Source: Pseudomonas putida
Lineage (GTDB): Bacteria > Pseudomonadota > Gammaproteobacteria > Pseudomonadales > Pseudomonadaceae
Assembly (NCBI RefSeq): GCF_028682455.1
Contig: NZ_JANHLD010000002.1
Coordinates: forward strand, 558,001 to 622,000
Direction: 5' to 3'
Length of the DNA: 64,000 nucleotides
This document shows, in pieces, positions 12,651 through 53,012 of this stretch (position 1 is the first letter of the stretch; each line of letters begins with the position of its first letter). The notes under the pieces are model-generated. The model saw nothing but the letters and a program-made list of their open reading frames with translations, was not told where the DNA came from and ran no database searches. The translations under genes were made by a program, and so were the position numbers.

Positions 12651-12672
12651 CTTGCTGATCTCCTTGGCTGGG

Positions 12673-13579: not shown

Positions 13580-13595
13580 AATCATATGGATGTTT
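13580..13595. promoter_or_regulatory. GntR-type operator candidate upstream of TetR gene
   Basis: AATCATATGGATGTTT matches AATCA-N6-TGATT at 9 of 10 defined positions. It lies in the leader of the TetR/P450 2 unit. Confidence 0.45.
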
Positions 13596-13681
13596 TGTTG
13601 ACGAGCGCCCGGATCATAAATACGATAAAGATTCAGATGCGTGATGTATTTCAAATTCGCAACAACCAAAAGGAGAGTGCC

Positions 13682-17955: not shown

Positions 17956-17971
17956 AATCCTATTGATGATT
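17956..17971. promoter_or_regulatory. GntR-type operator candidate in a 414-bp gene-free region
   Basis: AATCCTATTGATGATT matches AATCA-N6-TGATT at 9 of 10 defined positions. It is in the 17676-18089 gap between the DUF1329 start and the synthetase stop, about 280 bp upstream of DUF1329. The rest of this gap shows no convincing gene; a GC-rich inverted repeat near 18036-18065 lies just after the synthetase stop. Confidence 0.5.
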
Positions 17972-19640: not shown

Positions 19641-19659
19641 CTTACGAGTCCTCATCCAT

Positions 19660-22851: not shown

Positions 22852-22867
22852 AATCATTATGCTGATT
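22852..22867. promoter_or_regulatory. GntR-type operator, perfect consensus (proximal)
   Basis: AATCATTATGCTGATT has both arms AATCA and TGATT exact. It lies just upstream of the amidohydrolase start, where it would block RNA polymerase. Confidence 0.65.
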
Positions 22868-22902
22868 ATGCTGTAGCCGATACGGCTCCCGCAAGCCGCT
22901 CA

Positions 22903-22918
22903 AATCATATTGATGATT
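22903..22918. promoter_or_regulatory. GntR-type operator, perfect consensus (distal)
   Basis: AATCATATTGATGATT is a second exact match, 51 bp (about five helical turns) from the proximal one. The spacing suits cooperative binding of two dimers on one face of the DNA. Confidence 0.65.
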
Positions 22919-25289: not shown

Positions 25290-27446
25290 TCAGGCTCCAC
25301 TGTCACGTGGGTAGAAGCGCTCGCCACGTGTGGCACGTTCACGTAACCAGGCCGATGGCTTGAAGTGCTCCCCTGCAATTTCGGCCAGATTCTCACAGCG
25401 CTCGACAAACACCTCGGCACCGACCGTATCGATCAAACTGAAAACGCCGCCAGTCCAGCTTGGGAAACCAATTCCCAGGATAGAGCCCACATCGCCTTCG
25501 GCAGGATCAGTGATCACGCCCTCCTCCATGCACCGGGCTGCCTCCAATGCTTGCGAATACAGCATGCGTTGCTTGATTTGCTCCACAGATGGTTGTTCGG
25601 CCAGCGGGGCATAAACGTCAGCCAGCCCGGCCCACAGCTCACGCTTTGCGTCCGGGTAGTCGTAGAACCCCTTGCCGACACGGCGGCCGATTCGACCCAG
25701 CTCGTCACAAAAACGTTGCTGTACGGCGAAACCTGGTGACGGTTTCCACTGCTCGCCCAGGGCACTGCGTTCTGCCTTGGCCGCCTTGTAGCCGTTCTCC
25801 AGGCCAATATCGTCCATCAAGCACAGCGGCCCGATGGGAAAACCGGCCAGTTTCGCCGCGTTGTCGATCAATGCCGGCTTCACCCCTGCGGCTACCATCG
25901 CCAATACGTCTTGCAAGTAAGCGGCGATAACGCGCGAAGTGAAGAAGCCTCGTGAATCCTTGACCACAATGGGCGTTTTACGCAGCAAGCGGATGTAATC
26001 CAGAGCATGCGCCAGGGTTTGTTCGCTGGTTTGCTCACCGACCACAACTTCGACCAGCGGCATGCGGTCCACCGGGGAGAAGAAGTGCAACCCGATAAAC
26101 CCGGTCGGCGCCTTAAGATCACGGGCCATTCCGCTGATCGGGAGCGTCGAGGTATTGGATGCCAGGATCGTTCCGGGGCGTAAGTGCTGTTGGGCTTTGG
26201 CGAATACCTCGGCCTTTACCTTGACGTCTTCGAAGACCGCTTCGACCACCAAGTCGCAATCGCCCAGCGCGGCGTAGTCACCGGTGGTCTGTATGCGTTG
26301 CAAAATCGCATCGGCAGTCGCTTGCTGCATTCGGGCTTTAGCGATCCGTTTGGCGAACTCATCGGCCAAACGCTGCTTGCCGTTGGCAGCCTGTTCGGCG
26401 CTGGCGTCGAGCAACACCACTTCAAGTCCGGCAATCGAAGAGCTGTGGGCGATACCTGCTCCCATCAGCCCAGCACCAATCACACCAATTTTGCGCAGGC
26501 TGGCCGGAGGGATATCTTTGGGCCGGCGACTGAGCTTCTCCAGCTCACCTTTGTTGACGAACAGCGTGCGGACCATGTTGCACGCCGTAGGGTCCATGAC
26601 CAATTTGGCGAACTCACAAGCCTCAATGTGCAAACCCGCATCGATGGGCACCGCGGTGCCACGCGCCACCGCGCTGAGCAAGGCAATCGGTGCCGGCAGG
26701 TTGCGGCCGGTATCACGAGCGATTTGAGTCGCGTTGAGGTTATAGAGATTGCCCAATTCGACATCGGCGAAACCGGCGCCCCCGGGCACTTGATAACCTT
26801 TCTTATCCCAAGGTTGCTGAGCATCGCCGTGCTCCAGAACCCAGGCCTTGGCCGTTGCCAACAGCTGATCGGCTGCGACAACTTGGTGCACGATTCCCTT
26901 GTCGAACGCCGCCTGCGGGCCCATCAGGGTGCCCTTGAGCATCAGTGGCAGAGCTTGTGCAACACCAATCAGCCGAGGGAGGCGCTGGCTACCGCCGGCA
27001 CCTGGCATCAGGCCGAGTGTTGCCTCGGGCAAACCCAGCAGGATTTTCGGATTATCCACGACGACACGGTGCTGGCAGGCCAGCGCAATTTCCAGCCCGC
27101 CCCCCAGCGCCGAACCGTTGATCGCAGCTACAAAAGGTTTACCGCAGGTCTCCAACTTTCGCAGCAACGGACTAAATGCCGTGGCCATCGCAAAAGCTTC
27201 CTCTGTGGAGATATCGCGCGCCAGGTCGCGAACAATCTGCTTGAGATCACCGCCGGCAACGAAATCTTTTTTCGCCGAGGTGATGATCACACCGCGCACG
27301 CCCGCATCACCGGTTACCCGGTTGACCACTTCAGCCAGTTCGTCGCGCAGTTGAGTCGTGATGGTATTGGCCAATTGGCCGGGAACATCCAGGGTGACCA
27401 CGGCGATACCCGCGTCATCCAGGCAATACTGAATACTTTCGAACAT
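25290..27446 (-). CDS. FadB-like enoyl-CoA hydratase/3-hydroxyacyl-CoA dehydrogenase
   Basis: 718 residues in two parts. Residues 1-190 are a crotonase domain with oxyanion-hole motif [17 protein letters not shown] near 110 and an [14 protein letters not shown] stretch. Residues about 310-715 are a 3-hydroxyacyl-CoA dehydrogenase with the NAD motif [19 protein letters not shown] and a catalytic His in GLHFFSP. It hydrates enoyl-CoA and oxidises the 3-hydroxyacyl-CoA, the middle two steps of beta-oxidation. It stands between the thiolase (30-bp gap) and the acyl-CoA dehydrogenase pair, so this operon encodes a complete cycle. Confidence 0.92.
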
Positions 27447-27476
27447 GGAAATGCCCTGCTCCGTAAAGTGAGGTCT

Positions 27477-28700
27477 TCAGACGCGCTCGATGATCGTCGC
27501 TGCGCCCATACCGATACCGACGCACAAGGTGACCAGCGCGGTGCCGGCGCCGCTGCGCTCCAATTCGTCCAGGGCGGTACCCAGCAGCATTGCGCCTGTA
27601 GCCCCAAGGGGATGGCCCAGAGCGATTGCTCCACCGTTGACGTTGATACGCTCATGGGAAATGTCCAGGACGCGCATGTATTCGAGTACTACCGATGCGA
27701 AAGCCTCGTTGAGTTCGAACAAATCGATGTCGGCAACGCTCATTCCGGCGCGTTTGAGGGCTCGCAACGAAGCAGGAGCCGGGCCATCGAGCATGATGGT
27801 CGGGTCAGAACCAATCGAGGCAAAGCTGCGGATGCGCGCCCTCGGCTTGAGTCCCAAACGCTCACCTGCTTCGCGGCTGCCCACCAGCACGGCGGCGGCA
27901 CCGTCAACAATCCCCGAGGAGTTACCGGCCGTATGCACATGGTCGATTTCGAAGACTTCCGGGTACTTCTGCAAGGCAATGGCGTCATAGCCGCCCAACG
28001 TGCCCATTTGTGCAAATGCAGGTTGCAATGCGGCGAGGTCTTCGGCGCGTGTTTCAGGGCGTAGGTGTTCGTCACGATTGAGCAAGGTGCTACCGAGGGC
28101 ATCCACTACCGGGACCACTGAACGGGAAAAACGCCCTTCATTCCACGCCCGGGCAGCGCGCTGTTGGCTATGCAGTGCATAGCGGTCAACATCCGCCCGG
28201 CTAAACCCTGAACGGGTTGCAATCAAATCAGCACCTATGCCCTGGGGCGCAAAGTAAGTGCTATACGCCACCGCCGGGTCACGTGCCCAGGCGCTGCCCT
28301 GCGAGCCCATTGGCACTCTGGACATGGATTCGACACCGCCGCCGATCGCCAGGTCCAACTGACCAGCCATCACTTGCCCTGCCACCAGGTTAATCGCATC
28401 CAAGCCCGAGGAGCAGGCACGGTCGACATGAAAACCAGGCACCGACTGGTCATAACCAGCCATCAGAATCGCCGGACGGGTCAGGTTCGAGCCCTGTTCA
28501 CCAAAGGGCGTGACGATGCCGAAGCCGACCTCCTCTACCTCACGTGTATCGAGTTGACTGCGTCGCTGCACTGCACGTAATACCTGAGCCGCTAGCTCCA
28601 CGGACGGCACGGCGTGCAATCCGCCGTTGGCGCGACCACGACCGCGAGGCGTGCGTACATGATCAAAAATATAGGCATCAACCACCGTCTCTCTCCCCAT
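27477..28700 (-). CDS. Acetyl-CoA acyltransferase (thiolase)
   Basis: 407 residues from ATG 28700; a GTG seven codons earlier is possible, and neither has a strong ribosome-binding site. Active-site Cys is in [15 protein letters not shown] near residue 92. [17 protein letters not shown] with the catalytic His is near 357 and the second Cys is in TLCVGIGMG near 390. It cleaves 3-ketoacyl-CoA with CoA to acetyl- or propionyl-CoA. First gene of the leftward beta-oxidation operon, preceded by an extended inverted repeat at 28747-28771. Confidence 0.9.
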
Positions 28701-28746
28701 CCGATTCAACCCATTCAGCACAAGGCACCGTGCCGATATTTGTTTT

Positions 28747-28771
28747 AATCATATATATCCTTTATATGATA
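28747..28771. promoter_or_regulatory. Extended inverted repeat upstream of thiolase operon
   Basis: ATCATATA at 28748-28755 mirrors TATATGAT at 28763-28770. The left part AATCATATATA is the same half-site found at 365 and 34344. It lies in the 108-bp gap between the TetR stop and the thiolase start. Confidence 0.5.
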
Positions 28772-34343: not shown

Positions 34344-34359
34344 AATGGTATATATGATT
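34344..34359. promoter_or_regulatory. GntR-type operator candidate upstream of second nitronate-monooxygenase-family gene
   Basis: AATGGTATATATGATT has an exact TGATT arm and a weaker left arm. Its reverse complement matches 365-380 in 15 of 16 bases, and both sites precede paralogous genes. Confidence 0.5.
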
Positions 34360-36316: not shown

Positions 36317-37126
36317 TCAAAATTCTTGGAACAGCTCGGATATCAGCATGTGCTCATAGCCGGTGACCCAAACCTTGTTTGCGCGAACCATGTGCTTGCG
36401 CCAATGGGCTTCAGCCATGTCTATCTCGCGTGCCTCGATCAGTTGGATCAGCTTATCCTGAGACTTAAGCCCTGCAACCGCTGCCAAACGAGCACCTTCG
36501 AGCGATACGTCGCGGCGCTTCAAGGCAACCACTGCAGCCTGATGACGCTCTATCACTTCGTGCATAGCGCCCCACAAATGGATGAGCGGTTTATTGCCCG
36601 ACAGCTCCACCAGCAAGCGGTGAAAGCGCGCTACTTCGGCAGCGAACACCACCGGATCCTCGAAGCATTCTCGCTGCTGCTCAAGCACTTCACGCAGTAG
36701 CGCTGGCGCCTGTTGAGCTGCATGCTCGACGACAAACCTCACCGCCGAAGGCTCGAAAGCCATACGCGCCTGATAAACCTCGGCAACGGTAGTACCTTCA
36801 AACTGCAGCACCATCAGTGCGTAGCTGGCAATCAGCTGGGGATCCGGAGCGTGGACGATTGCCCCGCCCTTCGCACCTCGGGCAACTGTAATCAGGTGCT
36901 CTGCCTCCAGAATGCGAAAGGCTTCACGAATGGTAGGACGGGAAACCCCGAACTCCTCCATCAGTCGGCCTTCGGCCTGCAAAGTATCCCCTTCCTTCAA
37001 CTCCCCTCGAACAATTTGCTTCTTAATCCGAGCGGCAACAATTTGTGGCGCCTTGGGTATGTGCAGCACCTGGCGACGCTCGACACCGCGACTCGCCCGA
37101 AGCTGTAAATCCTTCATTTCACTCAT
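36317..37126 (-). CDS. GntR/FCD family regulator (copy 1)
   Basis: 269 residues. The winged helix-turn-helix at about residues 20-85 contains LMEEFGVSRPTIREAFRILE. The FCD all-helical effector domain follows to the end, with the usual metal or acid-binding His positions in EVARFHRLLVELSG and EAHWRKHM. The start at 37126 has GGGGAC upstream. FCD regulators are typically repressors released by an organic acid or CoA ester. It is paralogous to 41637-42437, with a nearly identical recognition helix, and diverges from the second acyl-CoA dehydrogenase pair. Confidence 0.9.
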   Translation of the reverse strand: MSEMKDLQLRASRGVERRQVLHIPKAPQIVAARIKKQIVRGELKEGDTLQAEGRLMEEFGVSRPTIREAFRILEAEHLITVARGAKGGAIVHAPDPQLIASYALMVLQFEGTTVAEVYQARMAFEPSAVRFVVEHAAQQAPALLREVLEQQRECFEDPVVFAAEVARFHRLLVELSGNKPLIHLWGAMHEVIERHQAAVVALKRRDVSLEGARLAAVAGLKSQDKLIQLIEAREIDMAEAHWRKHMVRANKVWVTGYEHMLISELFQEF

Positions 37127-37209
37127 GAATATCGTCCCCGCAATTGAAATTGGAACCGCCCGAAGCCACACAACCGCGCAGGTCGCCAGCGACTAGCCGC
37201 TATAGTATT

Positions 37210-37225
37210 AATGATAGCTATGATT
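37210..37225. promoter_or_regulatory. GntR-type operator candidate in regulator/dehydrogenase divergent region
   Basis: AATGATAGCTATGATT matches AATCA-N6-TGATT with one mismatch and is a near-perfect palindrome. It lies 84 bp upstream of the regulator start, a good place for autoregulation. Confidence 0.6.
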
Positions 37226-37360
37226 TAAATGTAACACATCTTATTTAAGAAATGACTCTGACGTGGCGAGCGTAGCGCCGGATCACTAGCACTCCCTAAG
37301 GATCCCGAAACTCTGGCAACATCGAGCAATACCCAATCGGCATCCTAGACAACTACAAAT

Positions 37361-37376
37361 AAACGTGTATATGATT
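37361..37376. promoter_or_regulatory. Weaker GntR-type site upstream of acyl-CoA dehydrogenase
   Basis: AAACGTGTATATGATT has an exact right arm TGATT and a poor left arm. It is 36 bp before the acyl-CoA dehydrogenase start. The same TGTA-TATGATT form recurs near 47829. Confidence 0.4.
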
Positions 37377-37411: not shown

Positions 37412-38515
37412 ATGAACTTTGATTTTTCAGATGAGCAGCAAATGCTGCGCGAGCAAGCCCGCCGGTTTTTAAGCGAAACGAGTACTTTCCATGCCCTGCG
37501 CGAACGTATCGCGCAGGGTGCGCTCATAGACCACGAACTGTGGCGACAAGTGGCTGAACTTGGCTGGTTGGCGGTAGCGATTCCAGAAGAGCAAGGAGGC
37601 CTGGGGCTAGGGGCCTTGGAACTATGCGTACTGGCCGAGGAGTTCGGCCGCAGCTTAGCGCCCGTGCCATTTCACGGAACCGTCTTCCTCGGCGCCGAAT
37701 TGCTTAAACGTTGTCAGGTGCCAGAAGCAGCAATCTGGTTGAGTCGAATTGCCAGTGGCGAAGCGATCATTGCTGCCCAGCCGACTTTAAGGTGGGATAG
37801 CGTCAGCCTGCACCTGGATAGCGGTGTAGTAACAGGCAACTGCGAGCCCCTGGCCTACGCCGCGCAAGCCCATGCAGCGATCCTTCCGGTGCTACAAGCT
37901 GGCCAGCCGGCGTTGGTTTTAGTCGACCTTGAGCAACAGCCGCTCCCGAGTCGTGGGGCTCGCAGCCTGGACGATGTTGTACCTTATGCAGTGCTGGAGC
38001 TGGATCAGACTCCTGTAGTGGTTTTGGCAGAAGGCGAAGCAGCCCAAAGAGCCATGCGGCAGGTAGTTGACCAGGACGCAATTCTTACCGCCTTCGAACA
38101 GATCGGCGGCGCGGACGCAGCCTGTCAATTGGCTCGCGACTATGCCCTCGAGCGGCATACTTTTGGACGTCCAATTGGCAGCTACCAAGCGGTCAAGCAT
38201 AAGCTGGCCGATATGGCCGTGAAGATCGAACTGGCCCGCTCCAATGCTTACTTTGGTGCCTGGGCCATGTATGCGGGAGAGAACGCCGATCGCAGCCTCG
38301 CCGCTGCCGCCAGCCGATTGAGCGCCACGACTGCGTTCGAATATGCCGCTCGCGAATGCATCCATTTACATGGGGGCATTGGCTACACCTGGGAAGCAGA
38401 TTGTCATTTCTTTTATAAGCGTTCACGCCTTCTAGCAGTGATCTTGGGCCAACCTGGCGCCTGGGTTGACCAGTTACTGGCTGATACCTCGCTCAATCAA
38501 TTGCAGATTCGCTAA
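37412..38515 (+). CDS. Acyl-CoA dehydrogenase, small-type subunit (pair 2)
   Basis: 367 residues starting MNFDFSDEQQMLREQARR, clearly paralogous to 24169-25287. ERHTFGRPIGSYQAVKHKLAD in mid C-domain and GGIGYTWEADCHFF near the end are conserved. As in its paralogue, the protein stops before the terminal EGT segment. RBS AGGGA. It is followed 9 bp later by a large-type subunit, so a second alpha2beta2 acyl-CoA dehydrogenase is likely, acting on a different chain length or a later intermediate. Confidence 0.88.
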   Translation: MNFDFSDEQQMLREQARRFLSETSTFHALRERIAQGALIDHELWRQVAELGWLAVAIPEEQGGLGLGALELCVLAEEFGRSLAPVPFHGTVFLGAELLKRCQVPEAAIWLSRIASGEAIIAAQPTLRWDSVSLHLDSGVVTGNCEPLAYAAQAHAAILPVLQAGQPALVLVDLEQQPLPSRGARSLDDVVPYAVLELDQTPVVVLAEGEAAQRAMRQVVDQDAILTAFEQIGGADAACQLARDYALERHTFGRPIGSYQAVKHKLADMAVKIELARSNAYFGAWAMYAGENADRSLAAAASRLSATTAFEYAARECIHLHGGIGYTWEADCHFFYKRSRLLAVILGQPGAWVDQLLADTSLNQLQIR

Positions 38516-38524
38516 GGAGCTCCC

Positions 38525-39706
38525 ATGGATTTCAATGATTCTCCGTCCGAAGCTGAATTCCGCGGGCAGGTCCGCACGTGGCTCGATACCCATGCGAAGG
38601 ACTTCATGAGCTCCAGCGACCATACCGACGTGATTTCCTTCATTGCAAAGGCAAAAACCTGGCAAGCGAAGAAGGCCCGCGAAGGCTACGCTGCCATCCG
38701 ATGGCCAAAAGCCGAAGGCGGTCTCGATGGTACGCCAATGCAGGAAGTGATCTTTCAGGACGAAGAGGCCCGATACGATGTACCCGTCGGCCCTTTCGTC
38801 ACGATCGGTACACAACTGGCCGTGCCAACGTTGCGCACTCATGGTACACCCGAACAAATCGAGCAATTCACCCAGCCGACCCTGCAAGGTGAGCTACTGT
38901 GGTGCCAATTGTTCTCTGAGCCTTCGGCAGGGTCGGACCTGGCCAACGTCCGAACCCGTGCGGTCAAGGATGGTGGCGACTGGGTCATCAACGGCCAGAA
39001 GGTTTGGACCTCCTGGGCGCATGTCGCCGACTGGGGCATCCTGCTGGCGCGCACCGATCCAGAAGCAACCAAACACAAGGGACTGACATTCTTTGTAGTG
39101 GACATGCGTAGTGTTGGCATCGAGGTGCGTCCAATTCAACAGATTTCAGGTGTGTCGGAATTCAATGAGGTGTTTCTCACTGACTTGCGGATTCCTGACC
39201 GCTACAGAATTGGTGCCGTAGGCGATGGCTGGAAATGCGCAATGACCACGCTTATGAATGAGCGGGTCAATGTCGGTGGAGAGAGCCAAGCGCTACCAAA
39301 CGTACTGGAGCTGATCGAGCGTGCACAGGATCAGTCATCCGGTGCCAGTTTGGATCGCTTCAAGATGGCGCAATTGCTGACCCAGGAAATGGGCCTGCGC
39401 TATTTCCGCTTCCGTTTGTTGACTTCGCTGTCCAAGGGCGAAACGCCCGGCCCCATTGCGGCGATGAGCAAGCTGGTTTACGCCAATACTTTGCAGGAAC
39501 TCAGCGCGATGGCTCTGGATGTCACAGGGCTACAAAAACTTCAAGCTGAAGGCGACAAGTTCCAGCATGGCTACGAATGGGCAGCAGCATTGCGTATTGC
39601 CGGCGGCACGGACGAGATACTGCGCAACCAGATTGCGGAACGGGTCCTGGGGATGCCCGGAGAAATCCGGGTCGATAAAAACATTCCCTTCTCCCAGTGC
39701 CGCTAG
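38525..39706 (+). CDS. Acyl-CoA dehydrogenase, large-type subunit (pair 2)
   Basis: 393 residues, paralogous to 22988-24169 and of the same length. CQLFSEPSAGSDLANV near residue 130 and VWTSWAH near 165 place FAD and substrate. At the C-terminus AGGTDEILRNQIAERVLG again has Gly at the usual Glu position. The ribosome-binding site AAGGAG lies between the upstream stop and this ATG. Together with 37412-38515 and the hydratase that follows it makes a partial second beta-oxidation set. Confidence 0.88.
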   Translation: MDFNDSPSEAEFRGQVRTWLDTHAKDFMSSSDHTDVISFIAKAKTWQAKKAREGYAAIRWPKAEGGLDGTPMQEVIFQDEEARYDVPVGPFVTIGTQLAVPTLRTHGTPEQIEQFTQPTLQGELLWCQLFSEPSAGSDLANVRTRAVKDGGDWVINGQKVWTSWAHVADWGILLARTDPEATKHKGLTFFVVDMRSVGIEVRPIQQISGVSEFNEVFLTDLRIPDRYRIGAVGDGWKCAMTTLMNERVNVGGESQALPNVLELIERAQDQSSGASLDRFKMAQLLTQEMGLRYFRFRLLTSLSKGETPGPIAAMSKLVYANTLQELSAMALDVTGLQKLQAEGDKFQHGYEWAAALRIAGGTDEILRNQIAERVLGMPGEIRVDKNIPFSQCR

Positions 39707-41636: not shown

Positions 41637-42437
41637 TCAGTCCTGCATAATCTCGGCAATTGTGGTTTCTTCGTAACCGGCTATCCAAGTCTTGTTGGCC
41701 GCTTGCATATGCTTGCGCCAATGCAGCTCAGCGCCATCCTCGTCGCCCGCTTCAATTAGCTTGATCAGCTTCTCTTGGGAGCGCAGACCGTAGGCAGCAT
41801 TAGCAACGATTTCCTCGGCTTGCGTGGTACGTCGATAAGCCGACACTGCTAATGCCTGGTGCTGCACAACTACCTCATGAATAGCGCCCCAGAGATGGAT
41901 CAGCGGGCGATTCCCCGACAGCTCAACCACCAGACGATGGAACTCTGCGATGGCTTGGGCGAAGGCGGCGGCGTCCTCGACCACTGCGCGTTCGGCCTCC
42001 AGGGAGGCCCGCAGGATTGCCGGGGCAGTTTTCTTGGCCTTTGCGGCCACCATACGTACTGCAGCCGGCTCAACAGCCAAGCGCGCCTGATAAACCTCAG
42101 CTACCCGTGTACCTTCGCACTGCAGCACCATGAGCGCATAATTAGAGATGAGACCCGGGTCCGGTGCATGAATCACGGCACCACCCTTGGCCCCCCGAGA
42201 AACAGTAACCAGACGCTCAGCCTCAAGAATCCGGTACGCCTCTCGAATAGTCGGGCGCGACACGCCGAACTCTTCCATCAGCTTGCTTTCGGCGGGCAAG
42301 AGATCGCCCTCTTTAAGCTGTCCGGATACGATCAATTTCTTGAGTCGGGAAGCCACGATCTGCGGAGCCTTTGGGATCTGCAACGGTTGTTTCCGAGGAC
42401 TGGAAGAAAGAGCGATCGTTGCACTTGCGTTGGTCAT
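41637..42437 (-). CDS. GntR/FCD family regulator (copy 2)
   Basis: 266 residues, paralogous to the regulator at 36317-37126. The helix-turn-helix reads LMEEFGVSRPTIREAYRILE, differing by one residue in this stretch. IPKAPQIVASRLKKLIVSG just before it is also shared. The FCD domain carries EFHRLVVELSGNRPLIHLWGA and ELHWRKHM. Because the DNA-reading helices match, both regulators should recognise the same AATCA-N6-TGATT operators, while differences in the FCD domain may give different effectors. RBS AGGA. Confidence 0.9.
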   Translation of the reverse strand: MTNASATIALSSSPRKQPLQIPKAPQIVASRLKKLIVSGQLKEGDLLPAESKLMEEFGVSRPTIREAYRILEAERLVTVSRGAKGGAVIHAPDPGLISNYALMVLQCEGTRVAEVYQARLAVEPAAVRMVAAKAKKTAPAILRASLEAERAVVEDAAAFAQAIAEFHRLVVELSGNRPLIHLWGAIHEVVVQHQALAVSAYRRTTQAEEIVANAAYGLRSQEKLIKLIEAGDEDGAELHWRKHMQAANKTWIAGYEETTIAEIMQD

Positions 42438-45308: not shown

Positions 45309-46124
45309 CTACCAGTGTGAATCACCACGCTCAAGTACTTCGGTGCCACCATCGATGCACAGGAGTTGACCAATCATCAGGCTGTTGGCGGGACTGGTGA
45401 GCCACAACATCAGCTCTGCCACTTCATCTGGACGGCCGTAGCGGCCCAATGTCTGTGGATGCATGTCCCGCACAACCTGACTGCGCACGGGATGATCGCG
45501 CAACGCCAAGCCTGCCTCGGTTTCAATAAATCCGGGGGCGACGGCGTTTACAATAATGCCACTGCCCCCCCAGCGAGGGCTGACGGCTGCACGGCGAGCC
45601 CAACGGGCAATGGCGACCTTGCTGCTGGCATAGATCCCCACAGGCGTTCGCTGGTTGACCAGGCGGCTCTCGGTTTGTGCTTCGACACGGGCAACTAGAT
45701 CTTGAGCCCTTTCTCTGGCGGCCTTCTCATTTCCAGCCAGGTAGAATTCGACCAAGGCTGAGTCGGCCGCGTTGGCATACGCCATGCGTGAAGACACTAG
45801 AACCACTCGCGGTGATTGCGACTTGAGTAGTAACGGCTGCAACCCTTCCAGAACGTCGACAGTGCCAAAGTAATTCAAGCTGGCACTGGCCGTACTGGAC
45901 ACCAGCAAGCCGGCGCAGGTAATAACTGCATCAAGCCCGTTAGGGCACAATGCCTGCACACTGGCAATCAGTTCTGCCCGTCCTTCGGGGGTAGAAAGAT
46001 CCGAAGCCACATCGCCTTCGTGCAAATCCGCGCGAATAACTTTGTACCCCTTGGCCTCAGCCAGCTCAGTAGTGGCCTTGCCAATCCCATTGGCAGCACC
46101 TGTAATCAATACCGTGCGAGTCAT
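45309..46124 (-). CDS. SDR, 3-alpha-hydroxysteroid/coniferyl-alcohol dehydrogenase-like
   Basis: 271 residues. TGAANGIG near residue 8 binds the cofactor. The active site SSRM...YASSK has an insertion of about 45 residues between the Ser and the Tyr, a feature of 3-alpha-hydroxysteroid dehydrogenase/carbonyl reductase and coniferyl alcohol dehydrogenases. It should interconvert a secondary cyclic alcohol and a ketone, or an allylic alcohol and aldehyde. Start 46124 has AGGAGG upstream and overlaps the monooxygenase gene by 4 bp. A ketone product would be a natural substrate for that monooxygenase. Confidence 0.84.
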   Translation of the reverse strand: MTRTVLITGAANGIGKATTELAEAKGYKVIRADLHEGDVASDLSTPEGRAELIASVQALCPNGLDAVITCAGLLVSSTASASLNYFGTVDVLEGLQPLLLKSQSPRVVLVSSRMAYANAADSALVEFYLAGNEKAARERAQDLVARVEAQTESRLVNQRTPVGIYASSKVAIARWARRAAVSPRWGGSGIIVNAVAPGFIETEAGLALRDHPVRSQVVRDMHPQTLGRYGRPDEVAELMLWLTSPANSLMIGQLLCIDGGTEVLERGDSHW

Positions 46125-47788
46125 GCCAATTCCTCCTGATGAGCCGTTGCGCCAGCGGCACAACCTGATAACACAAAGCCTTCATAGCCGTTGGCGGCTA
46201 CGGCATCGCACAGGCGCCGGTAATTACCGAAGCCACCGACAAAGGGCATGAACACCCGCGGCTTACCAGGAACGTTCGCCCCGGAGTACCAGGATGCGCC
46301 TTTGCGATGAAGCGTAATCTGGGCTAGCGACGCGACTTTTTCTACCCAAGCGTTTTCAGCGTCCGGAGTCGCTTCGATCAAGGTCTTTTTTTGCTGGCCC
46401 AGGTAACTAATGCAGTCCATGATCCAGTCGCTATGCTGCTCAATGGCCACAACCACATTTGCCAGCGCGCCGGGGCTCTGCGGCCCCGTCATGATGAACA
46501 GGTTCGGGAAGCCCGCTGTCGCCAGGCCAAGATAGCAGCGCGGGCCATCCTTCCACTTGTCCTTGAGTTTCAGCCCATCCCGGCCGGTCACCTGAATGCG
46601 AGACAGCGCCCCGGTTATGGCGTCGAAGCCGGTTGCGAACACCAGCACATCAAACGCCAATGCCTCTTCACTCGTGCGCATACCCTGGGCGGTAATGCAC
46701 TCAAGCGGCGTGCGCTTCAAATTTACCAGGCTCACGTTCGAGCGGTTGAAGGTTTCCAAGTAGTTGCTGCCGATGCACAAGCGCTTGGAGCCCAGAGGAT
46801 GATCATTTGGGCACAGGTCCTCGGCCACTTGTGGATCCTTTACGACACTGCGAATCTTGCCGCGTACAAAGTCCGCCGCAGTGGCGTTGGCTTCTTCGCT
46901 GATCAGCAGGTCATTGAACGAGCCTAGGAACGCGAGGCCATTGATCCGGTAGTTTTCTTCATAGATGGCTTCTCGCTCTTCGGGCGTTGCAACGAGGGCC
47001 GATTTGTCATTGAACTGATAGTGAGAACCACCACTGGAATACCGGGTTTTTTCACGGATTTGCGGGTAGGTTGCGCGGTAATGACGTTGTTCGTCTTCGC
47101 TGAGCGGTCGATTCCCAGCGGGCAAGACGAAATTGGCAGTGCGCTGAAACACCGTCAGATGTTCCGCCTGCTGGGCGATAAGTGGAACCATTTGTACGCC
47201 CGTCGATGCCGTACCCACCAGGCCCACGCGTTTGCCAGTAAAGTCCACGCCCTCAGCAGGCCAATTGGTGCTGTGGTACCAAGCGCCTTTGAAATCCTCC
47301 AGACCTGGGATGTCCACTGGCTTTGGAATGGTCAGCGAGCCGGTAGCCATGATAAGGAAACGGGCTTTTATCTGCTGCCCCTCCTGAGTTTCCACCGTCC
47401 ATCGCTCAAGATGCTCATCGAATGTGGCAGCACTGACGCGAGTATTGAACTGGATATCCCGGCGCAACTCAAAGCGATCGGCAACATGCCGGATATAATC
47501 CAGGATTTCAGCTTGAGTGGCGTAGCGCTCCGACCAGCGCCACTCATCTTGGAGCTCGTTGGAGAAAGAATAGGAGTAAATGACGCTCTCGATATCGCAG
47601 CGAGCACCTGGATAACGATTCCAGAACCAAGTACCCCCTACATCGGAGCCGGCCTCGAAAGCGCGCACGCTCAGACCTCGCTGACGTAAGCTGTGGACTA
47701 GATACAACCCGGCGAAACCTGCCCCGACGACGATGACATCGAATTCACCCGGGCAGGCGCTGGCCTTGCCTTGCTGCGCTTCACTCAT
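46121..47788 (-). CDS. Baeyer-Villiger monooxygenase (CHMO family)
   Basis: 555 residues, class B flavoprotein monooxygenase. FAD motif GAGFAGLYLV is near residue 22, GGTWFWNRYPGARCD near 52 and the Baeyer-Villiger fingerprint FKGAWYHSTNWP near 167. The NADPH motif is GTASTGVQ near 192 and a terminal ATGFD segment near 390. It inserts oxygen next to a ketone to give an ester or lactone. Start 47788 has AGGAG. It is coupled to a ketone-forming SDR and divergent from an alpha/beta hydrolase, which gives a complete alcohol-ketone-lactone-hydroxy acid module. Confidence 0.92.
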   Translation of the reverse strand: MSEAQQGKASACPGEFDVIVVGAGFAGLYLVHSLRQRGLSVRAFEAGSDVGGTWFWNRYPGARCDIESVIYSYSFSNELQDEWRWSERYATQAEILDYIRHVADRFELRRDIQFNTRVSAATFDEHLERWTVETQEGQQIKARFLIMATGSLTIPKPVDIPGLEDFKGAWYHSTNWPAEGVDFTGKRVGLVGTASTGVQMVPLIAQQAEHLTVFQRTANFVLPAGNRPLSEDEQRHYRATYPQIREKTRYSSGGSHYQFNDKSALVATPEEREAIYEENYRINGLAFLGSFNDLLISEEANATAADFVRGKIRSVVKDPQVAEDLCPNDHPLGSKRLCIGSNYLETFNRSNVSLVNLKRTPLECITAQGMRTSEEALAFDVLVFATGFDAITGALSRIQVTGRDGLKLKDKWKDGPRCYLGLATAGFPNLFIMTGPQSPGALANVVVAIEQHSDWIMDCISYLGQQKKTLIEATPDAENAWVEKVASLAQITLHRKGASWYSGANVPGKPRVFMPFVGGFGNYRRLCDAVAANGYEGFVLSGCAAGATAHQEELA

Positions 47789-47828
47789 CTCACTGTCTCC
47801 TGAATACCTCGGCTTCACTTTGCCGAAT

Positions 47829-47862
47829 TATTGTGTGTATGATTTATAGCATACACATCATT
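47829..47862. promoter_or_regulatory. Operator-like dyads between Baeyer-Villiger and hydrolase genes
   Basis: TATTGTGTGTATGATT at 47829-47844 has an exact TGATT arm. The reverse of 47847-47862 reads AATGATGTGTATGCTA, close to the 40525 site. They sit in the only divergent promoter region of this block. Confidence 0.45.
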
Positions 47863-47934
47863 ATTCGAAGAGTAAGAAATTATTCCAGCTGTTCGACGTC
47901 GACGGTGATGAAGAGAATTCCTTGGAGCAGTCAA

Positions 47935-48774
47935 ATGACACTGTTTACCCATTACCTCGATGGCGATCACGTCACGTTGTGCGCAGACGTTGGCGGAAAC
48001 CCCAAGGCTCCGGCGGTAGTTTTTTTACACGGGGGTGGCCAGACGCGTCATTCTTGGAGCAAGGCAGCGCGCAGCCTGGTGGACCAGGACTACCATTGCC
48101 TGGCACTTGACTTGAGAGGTCACGGTGATAGCAAGTGGGCTGAAAATGGAGATTACAAAGTCGACGCCTTCATCGCCGATCTTAAAGCCGTTATCTCCAC
48201 TCTCCATCACCTCCCCGTTCTGGTGGGTGCTTCGTTAGGTGGAGCCACCTGTTTACTGGCGGTTGGTGAATCGAGTGAGCCTCTGGCTAAAGCTCTGGTG
48301 CTGGTCGACGTAGTTCCACGCATGGTCCCAGTGGGAATACGACATATCCACGACTTCATGCGTGGCAACCCGCAAGGCTTTGCCACACTGGAGGACGCCG
48401 CGGATGCTGTTGCAGCCTACATTCCAGACCGCCCACGTCCTTCCTCACCTCAGGGCCTCCTGAAAAACTTAAGACTTAAGGGCGATGGTCGTTATCACTG
48501 GCACTGGGACCCGCAATTCCAGAACGACCGCTCCAGAACCGACATGGGAGAACTGACTATCCGAATGGAGAATGCGGCCAGGCACGTGCATATCCCCACC
48601 TTGCTCGTACGTGGCAAGCAAAGCGAAGTGGTTAGCCAGGAAGGTGTACAGCACTTGCTGGAATTGATTCCTCATGCGCAGTATGTCGATGTCGAAGGGG
48701 CCGGACACATGGTCGCGGGTGATCGCAACGATGTGTTCAATCAAGCGATTGAAGGCTTTTTGCGCGGTTTTTAA
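47935..48774 (+). CDS. Alpha/beta hydrolase, possible lactone/ester hydrolase
   Basis: 279 residues from ATG 47935 (GGAG seven bases upstream). FLHGGGQTRHSW near residue 28, the nucleophile Ser in VGASLGGAT near 98, an acid region near 220-225 (VRGKQSEVV) and the catalytic His in GAGHMVAG near 257 complete a triad. It resembles peroxidase-type and lactonase-type alpha/beta hydrolases. Divergent from the Baeyer-Villiger gene with a shared promoter region, it probably opens the lactone or ester that enzyme makes; this is inference. Confidence 0.87.
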   Translation: MTLFTHYLDGDHVTLCADVGGNPKAPAVVFLHGGGQTRHSWSKAARSLVDQDYHCLALDLRGHGDSKWAENGDYKVDAFIADLKAVISTLHHLPVLVGASLGGATCLLAVGESSEPLAKALVLVDVVPRMVPVGIRHIHDFMRGNPQGFATLEDAADAVAAYIPDRPRPSSPQGLLKNLRLKGDGRYHWHWDPQFQNDRSRTDMGELTIRMENAARHVHIPTLLVRGKQSEVVSQEGVQHLLELIPHAQYVDVEGAGHMVAGDRNDVFNQAIEGFLRGF

Positions 48775-51032: not shown

Positions 51033-51048
51033 AATCATATCTATGATT
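51033..51048. promoter_or_regulatory. GntR-type operator, perfect palindrome
   Basis: AATCATATCTATGATT has 7-bp perfect arms (AATCATA/TATGATT) around two bases. It is the best copy in the window and ends 42 bp before the linalool-isomerase-like gene. Confidence 0.7.
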
Positions 51049-51090: not shown

Positions 51091-53007
51091 ATGTCCAGCC
51101 TCAACCGACCGGCCGCGGACGTCAGTGCCCCGGTTCATCTTGGTGCCAGCCAAGAAGGCCCCATGACTCGAGCAAAGAAACGCCGTACCAGCATTGTCTA
51201 TATCCTCTGCGCATTGCTCGGCCTGGTGCCCTCGGTTCTTGGGGCACATACAGCCCTGCAAGCCTTCGGTCTCGGCCTGCTGTTCCCTGGAGCCGGCTTT
51301 TTTTCTGTCGGCGGTTGGGCCCTGTTGCTGGTGCCACTGACACTGGCTTTGTATCTGGTAGCGCTCATCGCTTGGTTCGGCTCGGGAATGATCGTCGCGC
51401 CAATCATCATCTGGCTCGGGTCCGCGCTGCTCGCTGCAGGGTTGGTCGGCGAGACGAGCTCACCCATAGGCGCAGCGTTGGCAGTGGGGCTGTTCGTTCT
51501 CTATCGAATTCGTGGGACGATCAAGCAGCGCAAGGCGCAGGCTCAACTGCTGATGCGTCGTGAAGAGCGGAGTACCTACCTGCCAACAGCTACTCGCGCA
51601 GTTACCACTCGCGCAACTGAAGCCCCACCCGCTGAGCAGCGGGAGTTGAGCCTGGACGAACTGCAGGCTTTGCGCTTCAACTTGGATTTGGCACTGCAAC
51701 CGATCGGTTCGTTCGAGGGTTTCCAGACCATCGAGCAGTTTCAGACCTCCGCGCTGCGCTATCAGTTGAACAGCATCGGCTATTCGCTAGCTGTAATGCA
51801 GACCGTCTACACACCCAACTTCCAAGGGTACGTAAACTGTGCTCAGCGTAACGCGATCGACAAGGCGCTGAATAAGAGAGTGTGGGGGTACTGGCGCTGG
51901 GAACGGCTGTGGGGCCATTTCTCCTGGCGTTACGATCCGGTAGGCCGTGACAACATCATGCTGACAGGTTTTCTTGGCTTGCAAGTCTGTCTGTACATGG
52001 CATCAAGTGGTGATCGACGTTACACCGAGCCGGGCAGCCTGACTTTCACCTGGGGCAAACGCCGCTTTGCCCACGACATCCACAGCATCGCGCGCTCTAT
52101 TGATGAAAATTTCAGCCGCGCTGATTTCTGCCTCTATCCGTGTGAGCCGGGTTGGATCTACACGCCGTGCAACTTCATGGGCATGATGACATTGATTGCC
52201 TATGACCGATTGTTTGATACCCACTTGGCCGTAAAGCACATGCCCCGTTTCCGGGAAAATCTGGAAAATGAATTTACACTGGCAGACGGTGATCTGATCG
52301 TACTCCGCAATGAGATCACCGGTACATCAGTAGCCTTCCCATTCGGTAATGAAGGTCTTGCTCTGCTGGCACATGCATTGTTGCCTGAGCGAGCACGCCA
52401 GGCGTGGGCCCTGGCCAGGCGAGACTATGTAAAAGAACAGGACGGTGAGACCACCATTGAAGGGATGGAAAAAGGTGTCGACTTCGGTCGCTATCGCAAG
52501 GCTCCGATAGGACACATCCAACATATGCTGGGTGCGGCTGGGGAAATGGGCGATACCGCCGTGGTGAATGAGTTGCTGCGCCTGCTGGAAGATATCGGCA
52601 AGCCAACTCGCGAAAACGGTGTACTGAAGTATGAATGCTCCAGTGGACTGGCCGCCGACATGGTCCGCAGTCGCATCTTGCGCAAGGGTGACTGGAGTCG
52701 AACTGTAAATGAAGGGCCGTTACCGTGCACGCAACGAGGACCACTGCTCACCCAGGCACGCTACCCGCAAGTACTCGTAGCCCGAGCATTCAGTCATGGC
52801 GATGACCTGGATATGACACTTTACCCTGGTCTGGAACCAGGTCCCGAGGTCATAGTGGTTGAACGCTTGAAGGCTAATGCTCACTATCAGCTGGTCGTTT
52901 GCGACTCGCAGACCAGCGTCCAGGCCGACGCGAAGGGGCAATTGAAACTGACCGTGATGCTGTCAGGGCGCACTTCGATATCACTGAAACCCGAATTGCA
53001 GAGCTGA
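51091..53007 (+). CDS. Membrane-anchored linalool dehydratase/isomerase-like enzyme
   Basis: 638 residues. The N-terminal ~135 residues hold about four hydrophobic segments, then a basic linker (RIRGTIKQRKAQ). Residues about 190-530 match linalool dehydratase/isomerase (Ldi) of Castellaniella. KRVWGYW, RDNIM and CEPGWIYTPCN correspond to KRVWGDW, KENIM and CEPDNYFVQCN there. C351 and C360 keep the exact nine-residue spacing of the catalytic Cys pair, and D199 aligns with the catalytic Asp. The His after NIM in Ldi is Phe294 here. Length and membrane anchor recall the linalool isomerase of Thauera linaloolentis. Expected chemistry: isomerisation or dehydration of a tertiary allylic alcohol. 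RBS GGAG. Confidence 0.85.
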   Translation: MSSLNRPAADVSAPVHLGASQEGPMTRAKKRRTSIVYILCALLGLVPSVLGAHTALQAFGLGLLFPGAGFFSVGGWALLLVPLTLALYLVALIAWFGSGMIVAPIIIWLGSALLAAGLVGETSSPIGAALAVGLFVLYRIRGTIKQRKAQAQLLMRREERSTYLPTATRAVTTRATEAPPAEQRELSLDELQALRFNLDLALQPIGSFEGFQTIEQFQTSALRYQLNSIGYSLAVMQTVYTPNFQGYVNCAQRNAIDKALNKRVWGYWRWERLWGHFSWRYDPVGRDNIMLTGFLGLQVCLYMASSGDRRYTEPGSLTFTWGKRRFAHDIHSIARSIDENFSRADFCLYPCEPGWIYTPCNFMGMMTLIAYDRLFDTHLAVKHMPRFRENLENEFTLADGDLIVLRNEITGTSVAFPFGNEGLALLAHALLPERARQAWALARRDYVKEQDGETTIEGMEKGVDFGRYRKAPIGHIQHMLGAAGEMGDTAVVNELLRLLEDIGKPTRENGVLKYECSSGLAADMVRSRILRKGDWSRTVNEGPLPCTQRGPLLTQARYPQVLVARAFSHGDDLDMTLYPGLEPGPEVIVVERLKANAHYQLVVCDSQTSVQADAKGQLKLTVMLSGRTSISLKPELQS

Positions 53008-53012
53008 ACATT

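Follow-up and report, generated by a model that had tools for sequence, protein, structure and literature searches.

A membrane-anchored relative of linalool isomerase in an aerobic Pseudomonas gene island that probably degrades a bulky plant terpene alcohol

Introduction

At least two enzymes of the linalool dehydratase/isomerase chemistry have been characterised, each, as described in the sources cited here, from a denitrification-capable bacterium. Linalool dehydratase/isomerase (Ldi) of C. defragrans is reported as a periplasmic protein (PMC6600392) with both dehydratase and isomerase activities (PMC4097962), and GeoA as a medium-chain dehydrogenase (PMC3490891). The linalool isomerase Lis (ENO87364, EC 5.4.4.4) of Thauera linaloolentis 47Lol is described as a protein of 644 residues with four transmembrane segments and a cytosolic Ldi domain, with GRAVY values of 0.94 for the membrane part and -0.41 for the rest; it shares about 20% identity with Ldi and differs from it in dehydratase activity (PMC4791888). 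In Thauera, lis lies downstream of atuCFE and geoAB upstream of atuA (PMC4847356). An earlier reading of the DNA studied here, made from the letters alone (the sequence-only reading), assigned Ldi and Lis to anaerobic hosts, which overstates the case: monoterpene use by C. defragrans is reported both with and without oxygen (PMC4109377), and T. linaloolentis is able to respire oxygen (PMC4847356).

Here we describe an Ldi-like gene of Pseudomonas putida within a stretch of 64,000 nucleotides (GCF_028682455.1, contig NZ_JANHLD010000002.1, positions 558,001-622,000, forward strand), hereafter the window, to which all coordinates refer. Judged by its sequence, the encoded protein is a membrane-anchored relative of linalool isomerase, a kind of enzyme already known; what is probably new is the aerobic gene setting and the likely substrate, rather than the enzyme architecture. 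Among the literature matches listed by title and start of abstract, subscription journals and patents aside, none concerned an Ldi of an aerobic pseudomonad or a sclareol isomerase.

Results

An Ldi barrel behind a hydrophobic anchor

The gene and the parts of its product are the following.

51091..53007, plus strand: Ldi-like membrane-anchored enzyme, 638 aa, uninterrupted ORF with a GGAG ribosome-binding sequence ahead of the ATG
51169..51540, plus strand: N-terminal hydrophobic region with four segments (residues about 27-150), from hydropathy; AlphaFold confidence is low here
51622..52734, plus strand: Ldi alpha/alpha barrel, residues 178-548, from the structural match to Ldi
52723..53004, plus strand: C-terminal beta-domain of the model, residues 545-638 as folded, outside the part covered by Ldi

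Across this ORF, stops are present in frame 1 of the reverse strand. A Pfam profile search placed the Ldi family (PF18566) on residues 223-517 (5.6e-80; 269.6 bits for a cut-off of 26.1), and phmmer matched the Ldi PDB chains at E 2.8e-10, the identity to Ldi of C. defragrans being about 20%. That Ldi is a homopentamer, and its PDB entries list five chains or multiples. The AlphaFold2 model (pLDDT 72.7, pTM 0.75) superposed on Ldi chain 5i3t_E with Z 29.2 and an rmsd of 2.8 over 329 aligned residues, compared with Z 18.6 for the best unrelated chain. The profile search and the structure prediction, two of the checks called for by the sequence-only reading, agree with its claim of a 638-residue Ldi homologue.

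The four N-terminal segments, called from hydropathy rather than by a dedicated transmembrane predictor, are likewise in line with the proposed membrane anchoring, GRAVY being 1.09 over residues 1-139 and -0.34 over the remainder; this trait is not new, having been published for Thauera Lis (PMC4791888). The C-terminal beta-domain alone gave no Foldseek match to known structures at E <= 0.001. Its VIA-align rows (best Z 8.6) mix a phage tail protein with glycoside hydrolases that have beta-sandwich parts, and for this reason we draw no function for the domain.

Positions of the Ldi site and the membrane-anchored clade

Three positions were located by alignment.

52141..52170, plus strand: codons C351 to C360, the conserved Cys-Glu...Cys family motif
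51970..51972, plus strand: codon of F294, at the Ldi His129 position
51685..51687, plus strand: codon of D199, conserved in the clade

The alignment and tree set had 41 rows, 28 from what we label the membrane-anchored clade and 13 others. Not in it were L013, L014 and L018, for which no ORF matched; L048, L054, L055, L060, L063 and L092, which were near-duplicates, short or not chosen; and, as duplicates, L001, L003, L019-L023 and L026. The clade label covers 28 rows, 25 of them with at least 10 hydropathy windows over 1.6 before the barrel; the rows below that number are L011, whose ORF has no N-terminal part, L042 (4 windows) and L093 of Rhodococcus (1 window). The tree carries long-branch warnings, and in it the Ldi of C. 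defragrans and the Ldi-like protein stand far apart.

In the alignment, C351 and C360 fall on cysteines 171 and 180 of Ldi (5g1u numbering), a pair kept in all 28 clade rows. The Glu after the first cysteine is common to both proteins, and Ldi Met125 is retained as M290. F294 does occupy the position of Ldi His129, as the sequence-only reading had it, which took the Phe for a possible mark of isomerisation only or of a new substrate. We dropped it as a sign of altered chemistry, since all 28 clade rows have F, W or Y there; His is found in 5 of the 13 other rows. The same reading also had D199 aligned with the Ldi aspartate, a correspondence that was not confirmed: D199 falls two residues ahead of Asp39 in the profile-profile alignment, and MAFFT places it alike. 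Even so, 23 clade rows have D in this column and 3 have E, the other two having N and a gap.

Clade members were found in Pseudomonas, sphingomonads, actinobacteria, Aureimonas and one gammaproteobacterial family (f93). In a search for Thauera Lis that went by way of genomes with benzoyl-CoA reductase (8 of 369 over the cut-off), PF18566 was present in 4 of 53 and then in 0 of 41, and three of those four, on inspection, had no multi-segment hydrophobic N-terminus.

Gene content of the island and of related loci

The island contains genes for alcohol and aldehyde oxidation, oxygenation and acyl-CoA turnover.

2472..3578, plus strand: Zn alcohol dehydrogenase; closest named solved relative benzyl alcohol dehydrogenase 1f8f (326 bits)
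6750..7988, minus strand: ferredoxin reductase
8123..9436, plus strand: P450a; closest solved relatives of CYP125 type
10510..10965, plus strand: 2Fe-2S ferredoxin, true start probably within the ORF
11193..12737, minus strand: ALDH2, aldehyde dehydrogenase; in Pseudomonas sp. GM21 its 90% counterpart lies two genes past the Ldi-like gene
12673..13473, minus strand: SDR2; its 90% identical counterpart directly follows the Ldi-like gene in GM21
14332..15537, plus strand: P450b; closest solved relatives CYP101J2 and P450cam
18090..19655, minus strand: acyl-CoA ligase
25290..28721, minus strand: FadB-like protein and thiolase
37412..39706, plus strand: ACAD3-ACAD4 pair; in the PDB each best matches one subunit of an acyl-CoA dehydrogenase entry that has two sequences
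46121..47818, minus strand: Baeyer-Villiger monooxygenase (BVMO); closest solved relatives steroid monooxygenase and phenylacetone monooxygenase
47833..48774, plus strand: alpha/beta hydrolase, divergent from the BVMO gene

The alcohol dehydrogenase that the sequence-only reading called geraniol-type, here a Zn alcohol dehydrogenase, and beta-oxidation genes are present in the window. Its picture of a P450-rich cluster stands in part: there are two P450s, but about 36 and 42 kb away from the Ldi-like gene, and in the P. izuensis and GM21 loci as read only P450a has a counterpart (best match of P450b 33-34%). The direct neighbours are a chemoreceptor, the hydrolase and the BVMO, which that reading did not mention. 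The Ldi-like gene stands by itself on its strand, with SDR2/ALDH2 about 38 kb away, and no further gene separates it from a lower-GC stretch that has integrase-like ORFs, as judged by eye.

An Ltp2-type aldolase is encoded about 10 kb before the window. Ltp2-like proteins with YDHF, described as the Ltp2 motif (PMC12329534), occur in all three Pseudomonas, followed by ChsH2 (DUF35) and ECH partners; the best NCBIfam model for the Ltp2-like protein scores under its cut-off.

In Pseudomonas izuensis, an environmental strain, the Ldi-like gene is 90% identical and has the same neighbours as in the window. A membrane-anchored Ldi-like member was present in 2 of 298 Pseudomonas genomes, and a BVMO counterpart (88%) co-occurs with it in the same two. 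The Ldi, SDR and ALDH genes of GM21 are consecutive, with gaps of 20 and 27 bases. In sphingomonads a Zn alcohol dehydrogenase follows the Ldi-like gene, with BVMO, ALDH, acyl-CoA synthetase, ECH and esterase close by, and on a Rhodococcus opacus plasmid the gene is accompanied by ALDH, P450, ferredoxin, ADH, NAD(P)/FAD oxidoreductase and hydrolase genes. The first neighbour lists kept only the longest among overlapping ORFs, so some genes were hidden in them.

A putative operator shared across the island

A palindrome ahead of the Ldi-like gene supplied the pattern for the sites listed here, together with the two candidate regulators.

51033..51048, plus strand: putative operator AATCATA-NN-TATGATT, 42 bases ahead of the Ldi-like ATG
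298..380, plus strand: operator-like sites 298 and 365, both with 3 mismatches, at the nitronate-monooxygenase-like gene 339-1529
2408..2423, plus strand: operator-like site, 2 mismatches, ahead of the Zn alcohol dehydrogenase gene
8030..8045, plus strand: operator-like site, 3 mismatches, between ferredoxin reductase and P450a
13580..13627, plus strand: operator-like sites 13580 and 13612, which lie between a TetR-like gene and SDR2/ALDH2 and fall within the TetR-like ORF if this is read from its longest start
17956..17971, plus strand: operator-like site, 2 mismatches, upstream of a DUF1329 gene
22852..22918, plus strand: operator-like sites 22852 and 22903, downstream of ACAD1 and at the start of an amidohydrolase-like gene
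28747..28762, plus strand: operator-like site with 2 mismatches, flanked by the thiolase gene and a TetR-like gene
34344..34359, plus strand: operator-like site, 2 mismatches, ahead of the gene at 34395
37210..37376, plus strand: two operator-like sites (37210, 37361) between a GntR-like gene and the ACAD3-ACAD4 pair
36317..37171, minus strand: GntR regulator with FCD domain, one candidate regulator for the putative operator
41637..42437, minus strand: GntR regulator with FCD domain, the other candidate

The window holds 14 operator-like sites, against 1.0 expected, and none of 100 shuffles reached this number; as the gene's own exact site matches by construction, the other 13 are the evidence. 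A control with 104 permuted palindromes gave a mean of 1.05 sites and a maximum of 6. Thirteen of the 14 sites are intergenic, while the intergenic share of positions 1-53007 is 8.7% on our own gene map, where the starts of some over-long ORFs were trimmed by eye (13511, 10510, 36317, 44264 and 47833 among them); sites 13580 and 13612 count as intergenic because of such trimming. The 20 kb lying 20-40 kb before the window carry 5 further sites (0.22 expected; 0 of 200 shuffles with as many), and the Ldi-like gene of P. izuensis has an exact copy of the palindrome.

Since the putative operator recurs at 13 other sites, the Ldi-like gene appears to belong to an island regulon with P450a and the alcohol, aldehyde and acyl-CoA dehydrogenases. 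Directly before the window BVMO gene there is no site with 3 mismatches or fewer; the P. izuensis BVMO has one with 3. None precedes the Ltp2 operon in any of the three Pseudomonas, the sole match at L082 lying inside the Ltp2-like gene, and the Ltp2 operon and BVMO are therefore tied to the Ldi-like gene by synteny and co-occurrence only. Neither of the GM21 Ldi-like genes has a site directly upstream. A FadR-type operator (TGGT...ACCA) was also considered for the Ldi-like gene and rejected, with 13 matches in the window and none within 50878-51090.

Discussion

A proposed route for a bulky terpenol

The island probably degrades a bulky plant terpene alcohol. Our best explanation, to which we give an even chance, is a hydroxyl mutase of the Ldi/Lis kind that feeds an aerobic regulon for a bulky polycyclic terpenol; we lowered it to this level from slightly better than even because no operator was found at the Ltp2 and BVMO genes. 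The substrate is most likely a tertiary allylic alcohol, probably a polycyclic terpenoid of the sclareol or manool type. The core of the sequence-only reading was an Ldi-type enzyme that probably takes a tertiary allylic alcohol as its substrate and that is set, together with a P450, among aerobic catabolic genes; the operator, the GM21 gene run and the sphingomonad and Rhodococcus companions speak for this.

From the observed fold, cysteine motif, hydrophobic anchor, gene order, operator and companion families we infer the reaction, the step order and the substrate. Mechanistically, the Ldi-like enzyme, anchored in the inner membrane, would shift the hydroxyl in its cytosolic barrel by 1,3-transposition, turning a tertiary into a primary allylic alcohol. 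SDR2 or the Zn alcohol dehydrogenase, and then ALDH2, would oxidise the primary alcohol to the acid. The ligase would form the CoA ester, and hydration would then set a tertiary hydroxyl on the beta carbon, allowing an aldolase of Ltp2-ChsH2 type to release acetyl-CoA and leave a methyl ketone. This ketone would be converted by the BVMO to an acetate ester, opened in turn by the hydrolase, while P450a and the steroid-type acyl-CoA dehydrogenases may handle the remaining bulky polycyclic skeleton. A labdane diterpenol (sclareol, manool) would fit every proposed step.

A more specific version is put forward tentatively, as a possibility with well under an even chance. Here a polycyclic terpenoid tertiary allylic alcohol such as sclareol or manool would first be isomerised, in an aerobic route, to a primary alcohol of the labda-13-en-15-ol type. 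This would pass through the acid to a bisnorlabdane methyl ketone and on in the direction of the ambrox precursor skeleton, with the whole clade serving as a general entry for tertiary terpenols. The Ltp2-type aldolase would replace the Atu carboxylase at the beta-methyl block, and the steroid-monooxygenase-type BVMO and the hydrolase would shorten the bisnorlabdane methyl ketone.

Several observations count against the proposed pathway: P450b has no counterpart in the P. izuensis and GM21 loci as read, no ALDH or P450 relatives were found in the 17 f93 loci, D199 falls two residues off Asp39 in both alignments, the Ldi-like gene is alone on its strand and no operator-like site was found directly upstream of either GM21 Ldi-like gene.

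Alternative explanations

The enzyme could be an ordinary Lis, converting linalool or nerolidol to geraniol or farnesol for an Atu/Liu-type carboxylase route as in Thauera linaloolentis, which we consider unlikely. Architecture and size are the same and the GRAVY is close to that published for Lis (PMC4791888), but Thauera lis is described beside atuCFE (PMC4847356), whereas a genome profile search gave no match to the carboxyltransferase PF01039 in the island. The sole full-length match of the genome lies about 506 kb away, in a carboxylase cluster whose adjoining hydratase scores over the cut-off of the NCBIfam model gamma-carboxygeranoyl-CoA hydratase; this name leaves room for an Atu-like carboxylase use and was counted against the proposed pathway. 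For an acyclic terpenol, moreover, the Ltp2-type aldolase, the steroid-type acyl-CoA dehydrogenase pair and the BVMO of the island would be superfluous. Because of the missing PF01039, with the only full-length one so distant, the larger terpenol in the substrate list of the sequence-only reading is likelier than its linalool or nerolidol.

It is rather improbable that the enzyme acts mainly as a dehydratase or hydratase, hydrating a terpene diene to a tertiary alcohol or removing water, with isomerisation minor. The Ldi of C. defragrans does both (PMC4097962), and the cysteines are shared. Lis, on the other hand, the closest characterised relative by architecture, differs from Ldi in dehydratase activity (PMC4791888), and the SDR and ALDH genes directly beside the GM21 gene would require a product alcohol that can be oxidised.

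An action of the clade on a lipid or prenyl chain, such as a polyprenol, with the catabolic neighbours secondary, also seems improbable. On an Aureimonas plasmid a polyprenyl diphosphate synthase gene shares 4 bases with the clade member, which a diacylglycerol kinase family gene follows, and two actinobacterial members adjoin cytochrome c oxidase assembly (CtaG-like) genes; both contexts would suit such a role. So would f93, where tblastn on 17 wider loci of 3.5 to 20 kb found ALDH or P450 relatives in 0, ADH/SDR in 3 and BVMO relatives (29-53%) in 5 (3 of 17 when gene lists held only the longest ORFs). The shared operator and the GM21 SDR-ALDH run argue against it, and a housekeeping lipid role agrees poorly with 296 of 298 Pseudomonas genomes in which no membrane-anchored member was found.

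That the gene is a mere passenger at the island edge by apparent mobile-element genes, as its place before the lower-GC stretch and its isolation on the strand might suggest, is highly improbable. In P. izuensis the gene has 90% identity, is flanked by the same neighbours and comes with an exact copy of the operator; the BVMO counterpart is found in the same 2 of 298 genomes as the membrane-anchored member, and in GM21 the SDR/ALDH genes adjoin it.

Implications

The data provide a clade of 28 aligned relatives and one case in which a shared operator links the gene to an oxygen-dependent catabolic regulon. Should the proposed substrate be right, aerobes would have a way into tertiary allylic terpenols that needs no prior oxidation elsewhere in the molecule, and the clade would offer new mutases for cyclic terpenols together with enzymes toward ambrox-type fragrance intermediates.

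Comparison with known systems

Compared by published description rather than by aligned sequence, the protein resembles Lis in its hydrophobic N-terminal anchor followed by an Ldi domain, its length (638 and 644 aa) and its hydropathy. The settings differ: lis belongs to a denitrifier and has atuCFE beside it and geoAB near, whereas the Ldi-like gene sits in an aerobic P450/BVMO/Ltp2 island. With Ldi of C. defragrans 65Phen it shares PF18566, the fold (Z 29.2), both cysteines, the Glu and Met125; at 20% identity, it has F294 in place of His129, and it has a transmembrane region and a C-terminal beta-domain, both of which Ldi lacks.

The ldi-geoA-geoB logic, an isomerase followed by alcohol and aldehyde dehydrogenases, is matched by the GM21 Ldi-SDR-ALDH run, although this has an SDR where GeoA is medium-chain, and the downstream steps differ. 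Finally, steroid side-chain degradation, with CYP125, two-subunit acyl-CoA dehydrogenases and ChsH2-Ltp2, is where the closest solved relatives of the island enzymes are found, and to this scheme the island adds the Ldi-like enzyme and a steroid-monooxygenase-like BVMO.

Fold and active site of the Ldi-like protein

The enzyme under study is encoded by a single uninterrupted frame, with GGAG preceding its ATG:

51091-53007 (+), Ldi-like gene, 638 codons

The sequence-only reading had proposed a homologue of the linalool dehydratase/isomerase (Ldi) of Castellaniella defragrans, and both domain search and predicted structure bear this out. PF18566 (Ldi) is the sole Pfam family above cut-off (269.6 bits, residues 223-517); an NCBIfam search at E <= 1e-5 gave no family. 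PDB matches by phmmer at E <= 1 are Ldi entries only (best 2.8e-10), and searching with a six-row profile retrieves Ldi at 2e-17, besides one weak unrelated row at 0.38. An AlphaFold2 model built from six sequences (pLDDT 72.7, pTM 0.75, low confidence in the membrane region; mean pLDDT across the five models 72.7 to 51.7) superposes on Ldi with Z 29.2 and rmsd 2.8 over 329 residues, the first unrelated chain following at Z 18.6. Its barrel spans residues 178-548, preceded by a membrane anchor of four hydrophobic segments and followed by a beta-domain of about 90 residues, which lies outside the portion that C. defragrans Ldi covers and reaches a pLDDT of 91.6 when folded alone.

We take the roles of the Ldi active-site residues as given. 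The cysteine pair aligned earlier with Ldi belongs to a Cys-Glu...Cys motif (C351, E352, C360) present in 28/28 rows of the protein's clade and in all 13 other rows. D199 is conserved within the clade, offset by two residues from Ldi Asp39 in both hhalign and MAFFT. The replacement of the Ldi histidine by Phe294 also holds, but not its use as a pointer to isomerisation only: the His129 position carries Trp (12), Tyr (9) or Phe (7) in all 28 clade rows, and thus Phe294 alone is no argument for that restriction. In this alignment Phe is an ordinary state; the 13 non-clade rows have Tyr in six, His in five (Ldi, L012 and L089-L091) and Phe in two.

Relatives and distribution

Phylogenetic analysis of 41 rows unites the window protein with its counterparts from P. 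izuensis (90%) and Pseudomonas sp. GM21 (64%) at a support of 100/100, within the 28-row set (100/100). Ldi groups away from that set with L012, a homologue with a single hydrophobic segment at its N-terminus; long-branch warnings apply to this tree. PF18566 is rare, occurring in 3/298 Pseudomonas genomes, 6/369 in the class and 3/398 in the phylum (window's genome counted in each), and one of the three Pseudomonas carriers (L002) has no hydrophobic N-terminus.

One gammaproteobacterial family (f93, that of G388 and relatives) has PF18566 in 18 of 36 genomes; in seven of these it occurs two or three times, and some of the copies are divergent and lack the hydrophobic N-terminus. Three loci of another family, f121 (L089, L090, L091), encode 546-residue PF18566 proteins that keep the Ldi histidine and lack the multi-segment N-terminus; these are possible further Ldi-like enzymes, and the genome of one family member (G629) encodes a benzoyl-CoA reductase.

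A shared putative operator

Upstream of the Ldi-like gene lies the palindrome AATCATA-NN-TATGATT. With up to three mismatches the window holds 14 sites, this one included, against 1.0 expected, a count reached in 0/100 shuffles of the window; permuted palindromes (n=104) gave at most 6. With up to two mismatches there are 8 sites (control mean 0.07). Twelve sites are wholly intergenic, compared with a mean of 0.34 and a maximum of 3 in 500 Markov shuffles of the same stretches. Sites precede these genes, together with the DUF1329, amidohydrolase-like and NMO2 genes:

2472-3578, Zn-ADH
8123-9436, P450a
11193-12737 and 12673-13473, ALDH2 and SDR2
25290-28721, FadB/thiolase (site before the thiolase gene)
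36317-37171 and 37412-39706, GntR-FCD and ACAD3-ACAD4

Five further sites occur in the 20 kb lying 20-40 kb before the window (0.22 expected); the 20 kb after it hold one, at chance level. In P. izuensis the palindrome recurs without mismatch ahead of the Ldi-like gene, and the BVMO gene is preceded by a site with three mismatches. In GM21, sites precede a P450 and an ALDH gene, and none stands directly before either Ldi-like copy.

Between the chemoreceptor and Ldi-like genes, upstream of the operator, a hexanucleotide repeat (50949-50978) has five GATGCC copies, whose number could be variable.

Island content and neighbours in other genomes

Further island genes are:

14332-15537, P450b
46121-47818, BVMO
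47833-48774, alpha/beta hydrolase

Among window genes recognised in the locus comparison, those from the one at 339 (nitronate-monooxygenase-like) to the Ldi-like gene keep their order in the P. izuensis loci at 77-97% protein identity, with an extra ADH-like ORF inserted. Both P450s named by the sequence-only reading are present in the window, but P450b has no counterpart in those loci. The nearest PDB chains are of CYP125 type for P450a (424 bits), CYP101J2 and P450cam for P450b, and steroid monooxygenase (629 bits), also phenylacetone monooxygenase, for the BVMO. ACAD4 best matches 4x28_A and ACAD3 Tcur3481 of 6wy8, which we take to be members of steroid-type acyl-CoA dehydrogenase heterotetramers. 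The island also holds FadB and thiolase genes, and about 10 kb before the window an Ltp2-like gene is followed by ChsH2-like and ECH genes. The Ltp2-like proteins of all three Pseudomonas carry YDHF, described in PMC12329534 as the motif of Ltp2 aldolases (YDCY being that of Sal); it is absent from the thiolase-like genes examined in two sphingomonad loci.

The Ltp2-like protein (L082, the stretch before the window, 10224-12668; G000:C2 about 548-551 kb) is 99.5% identical to the P. izuensis copy, its neighbours 86-96%, and on this pattern the gene was perhaps recently exchanged. Just past the window (L083 9066-17277), a second DUF1329-like gene stands with an ALDH-like gene and what looks by eye like a gene for an RND-type exporter; together they may form another hydrophobic-compound cluster. 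GC drops from 0.573 in 1-50877 to 0.540 in window 53008-64000, where the ORFs at 60510 and 62506 resemble integrases. In P. izuensis the Ldi-like gene is followed by a ParA-like ORF and by further ones reminiscent of an integrative element. Judged by eye, the island may lie beside or on a mobile element.

In GM21 the Ldi-like gene is followed by an SDR (90% to SDR2) and an ALDH (90% to ALDH2), with gaps of 20 and 27 bases, and the Ltp2 operon lies about 20 kb off on the same contig. Within Pseudomonas, the BVMO (at least 88% identity) and the membrane-anchored protein co-occur in the same 2/298 genomes; among the BVMO matches listed at E <= 1e-100, all the others stand at 53% or below. Two sphingomonad loci place a Zn-ADH directly after the Ldi-like gene and also contain BVMO, ALDH, NDP-type acyl-CoA synthetase, ECH, thiolase-like, TonB receptor and Abhydrolase_3 genes (Pfam assignments for locus L007). 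On a Rhodococcus opacus plasmid, one side of the gene has a cytochrome c oxidase assembly protein, ALDH, P450, ferredoxin and, farther, an ADH; the other has an MFS transporter, hydrolases, ADH, NAD(P)/FAD oxidoreductase, SDR and ALDH. The order in Mycobacterium innocens is CtaG-like, Ldi-like, ALDH. A CtaG-like gene adjoins the Ldi-like gene in both actinobacterial loci (L009, M. innocens; L093, R. opacus), making its product a possible partner.

The 17 f93 loci with an Ldi-like gene count against this catabolic setting, with ALDH and P450 relatives in none, ADH/SDR in three and BVMO relatives in five. On Aureimonas sp. AU20 plasmid pAU20b (L095 10751-13900), the Ldi-like gene shares 4 bases with a gene for a polyprenyl diphosphate synthase, and the next gene belongs to the diacylglycerol kinase family; this setting looks like prenol or lipid metabolism rather than catabolism.

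Proposed pathway

Sequence or fold establishes the family, the anchor, the Cys motif, the gene order, the operator and the Ltp2 motif. Beyond these, we propose a membrane-anchored mutase that would convert a tertiary into a primary allylic alcohol and feed the aerobic island. SDR2 or Zn-ADH, then ALDH2, would oxidise the primary alcohol to an acid, whose ordinary beta-oxidation would be blocked because of the methyl group on the beta carbon. In Thauera this block is reported to be removed by the Atu carboxylase (PMC4847356). PF01039 has no match in the island. Elsewhere in the genome, a single gene matches it over its full length, at a distance of about 506 kb; three more matches are partial and score 58-65 bits, and the closest of these lies about 57 kb from the Ldi-like gene, in a 339-aa open frame. 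The partial matches are presumably of acetyl-CoA carboxylase type. The full-length gene adjoins acyl-CoA dehydrogenase, hydratase and biotin carboxylase genes, an order we take to be that of liuABCD, with some doubt from the hydratase's NCBIfam name; the 14 kb around this carboxylase hold one palindrome site.

With an Ltp2-type aldolase the block would be overcome differently: after CoA ligation, hydration would yield a tertiary beta-hydroxyacyl-CoA, and retro-aldol cleavage a methyl ketone and acetyl-CoA. The BVMO would turn the ketone into an acetate ester, to be hydrolysed afterwards. Such methyl ketones are the substrate type of steroid-monooxygenase-like BVMOs, and sclareol, manool and like labdanes have the corresponding side chain. 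Acinetobacter is reported to transform Z-abienol, a labdane, by way of intermediates that include sclareol, through enzymes proposed from annotation (PMC12117261). According to a review, the yeast Hyphozyma roseoniger turns sclareol into ambradiol (PMC7504449).

No palindrome site precedes the window BVMO or the Ltp2 operon, the lone match in L082 (0.19 expected) lying inside the Ltp2-like gene. For this reason our confidence in the mutase pathway as a whole falls from slightly better than even to evenly balanced, and an isomerise-first route for polycyclic terpenols such as sclareol or manool, rather unlikely before, now seems slightly less likely still.

Comparison with known enzymes

Among the papers listed by searches on aerobic pseudomonad Ldi and on sclareol isomerase, judged by title and opening of the abstract, none covers this context, regulon or likely substrate class. 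The enzyme kind itself is already known: Thauera linalool isomerase (Lis), the one characterised membrane-anchored member, is, by its description in PMC4791888, like the window protein in architecture and length.
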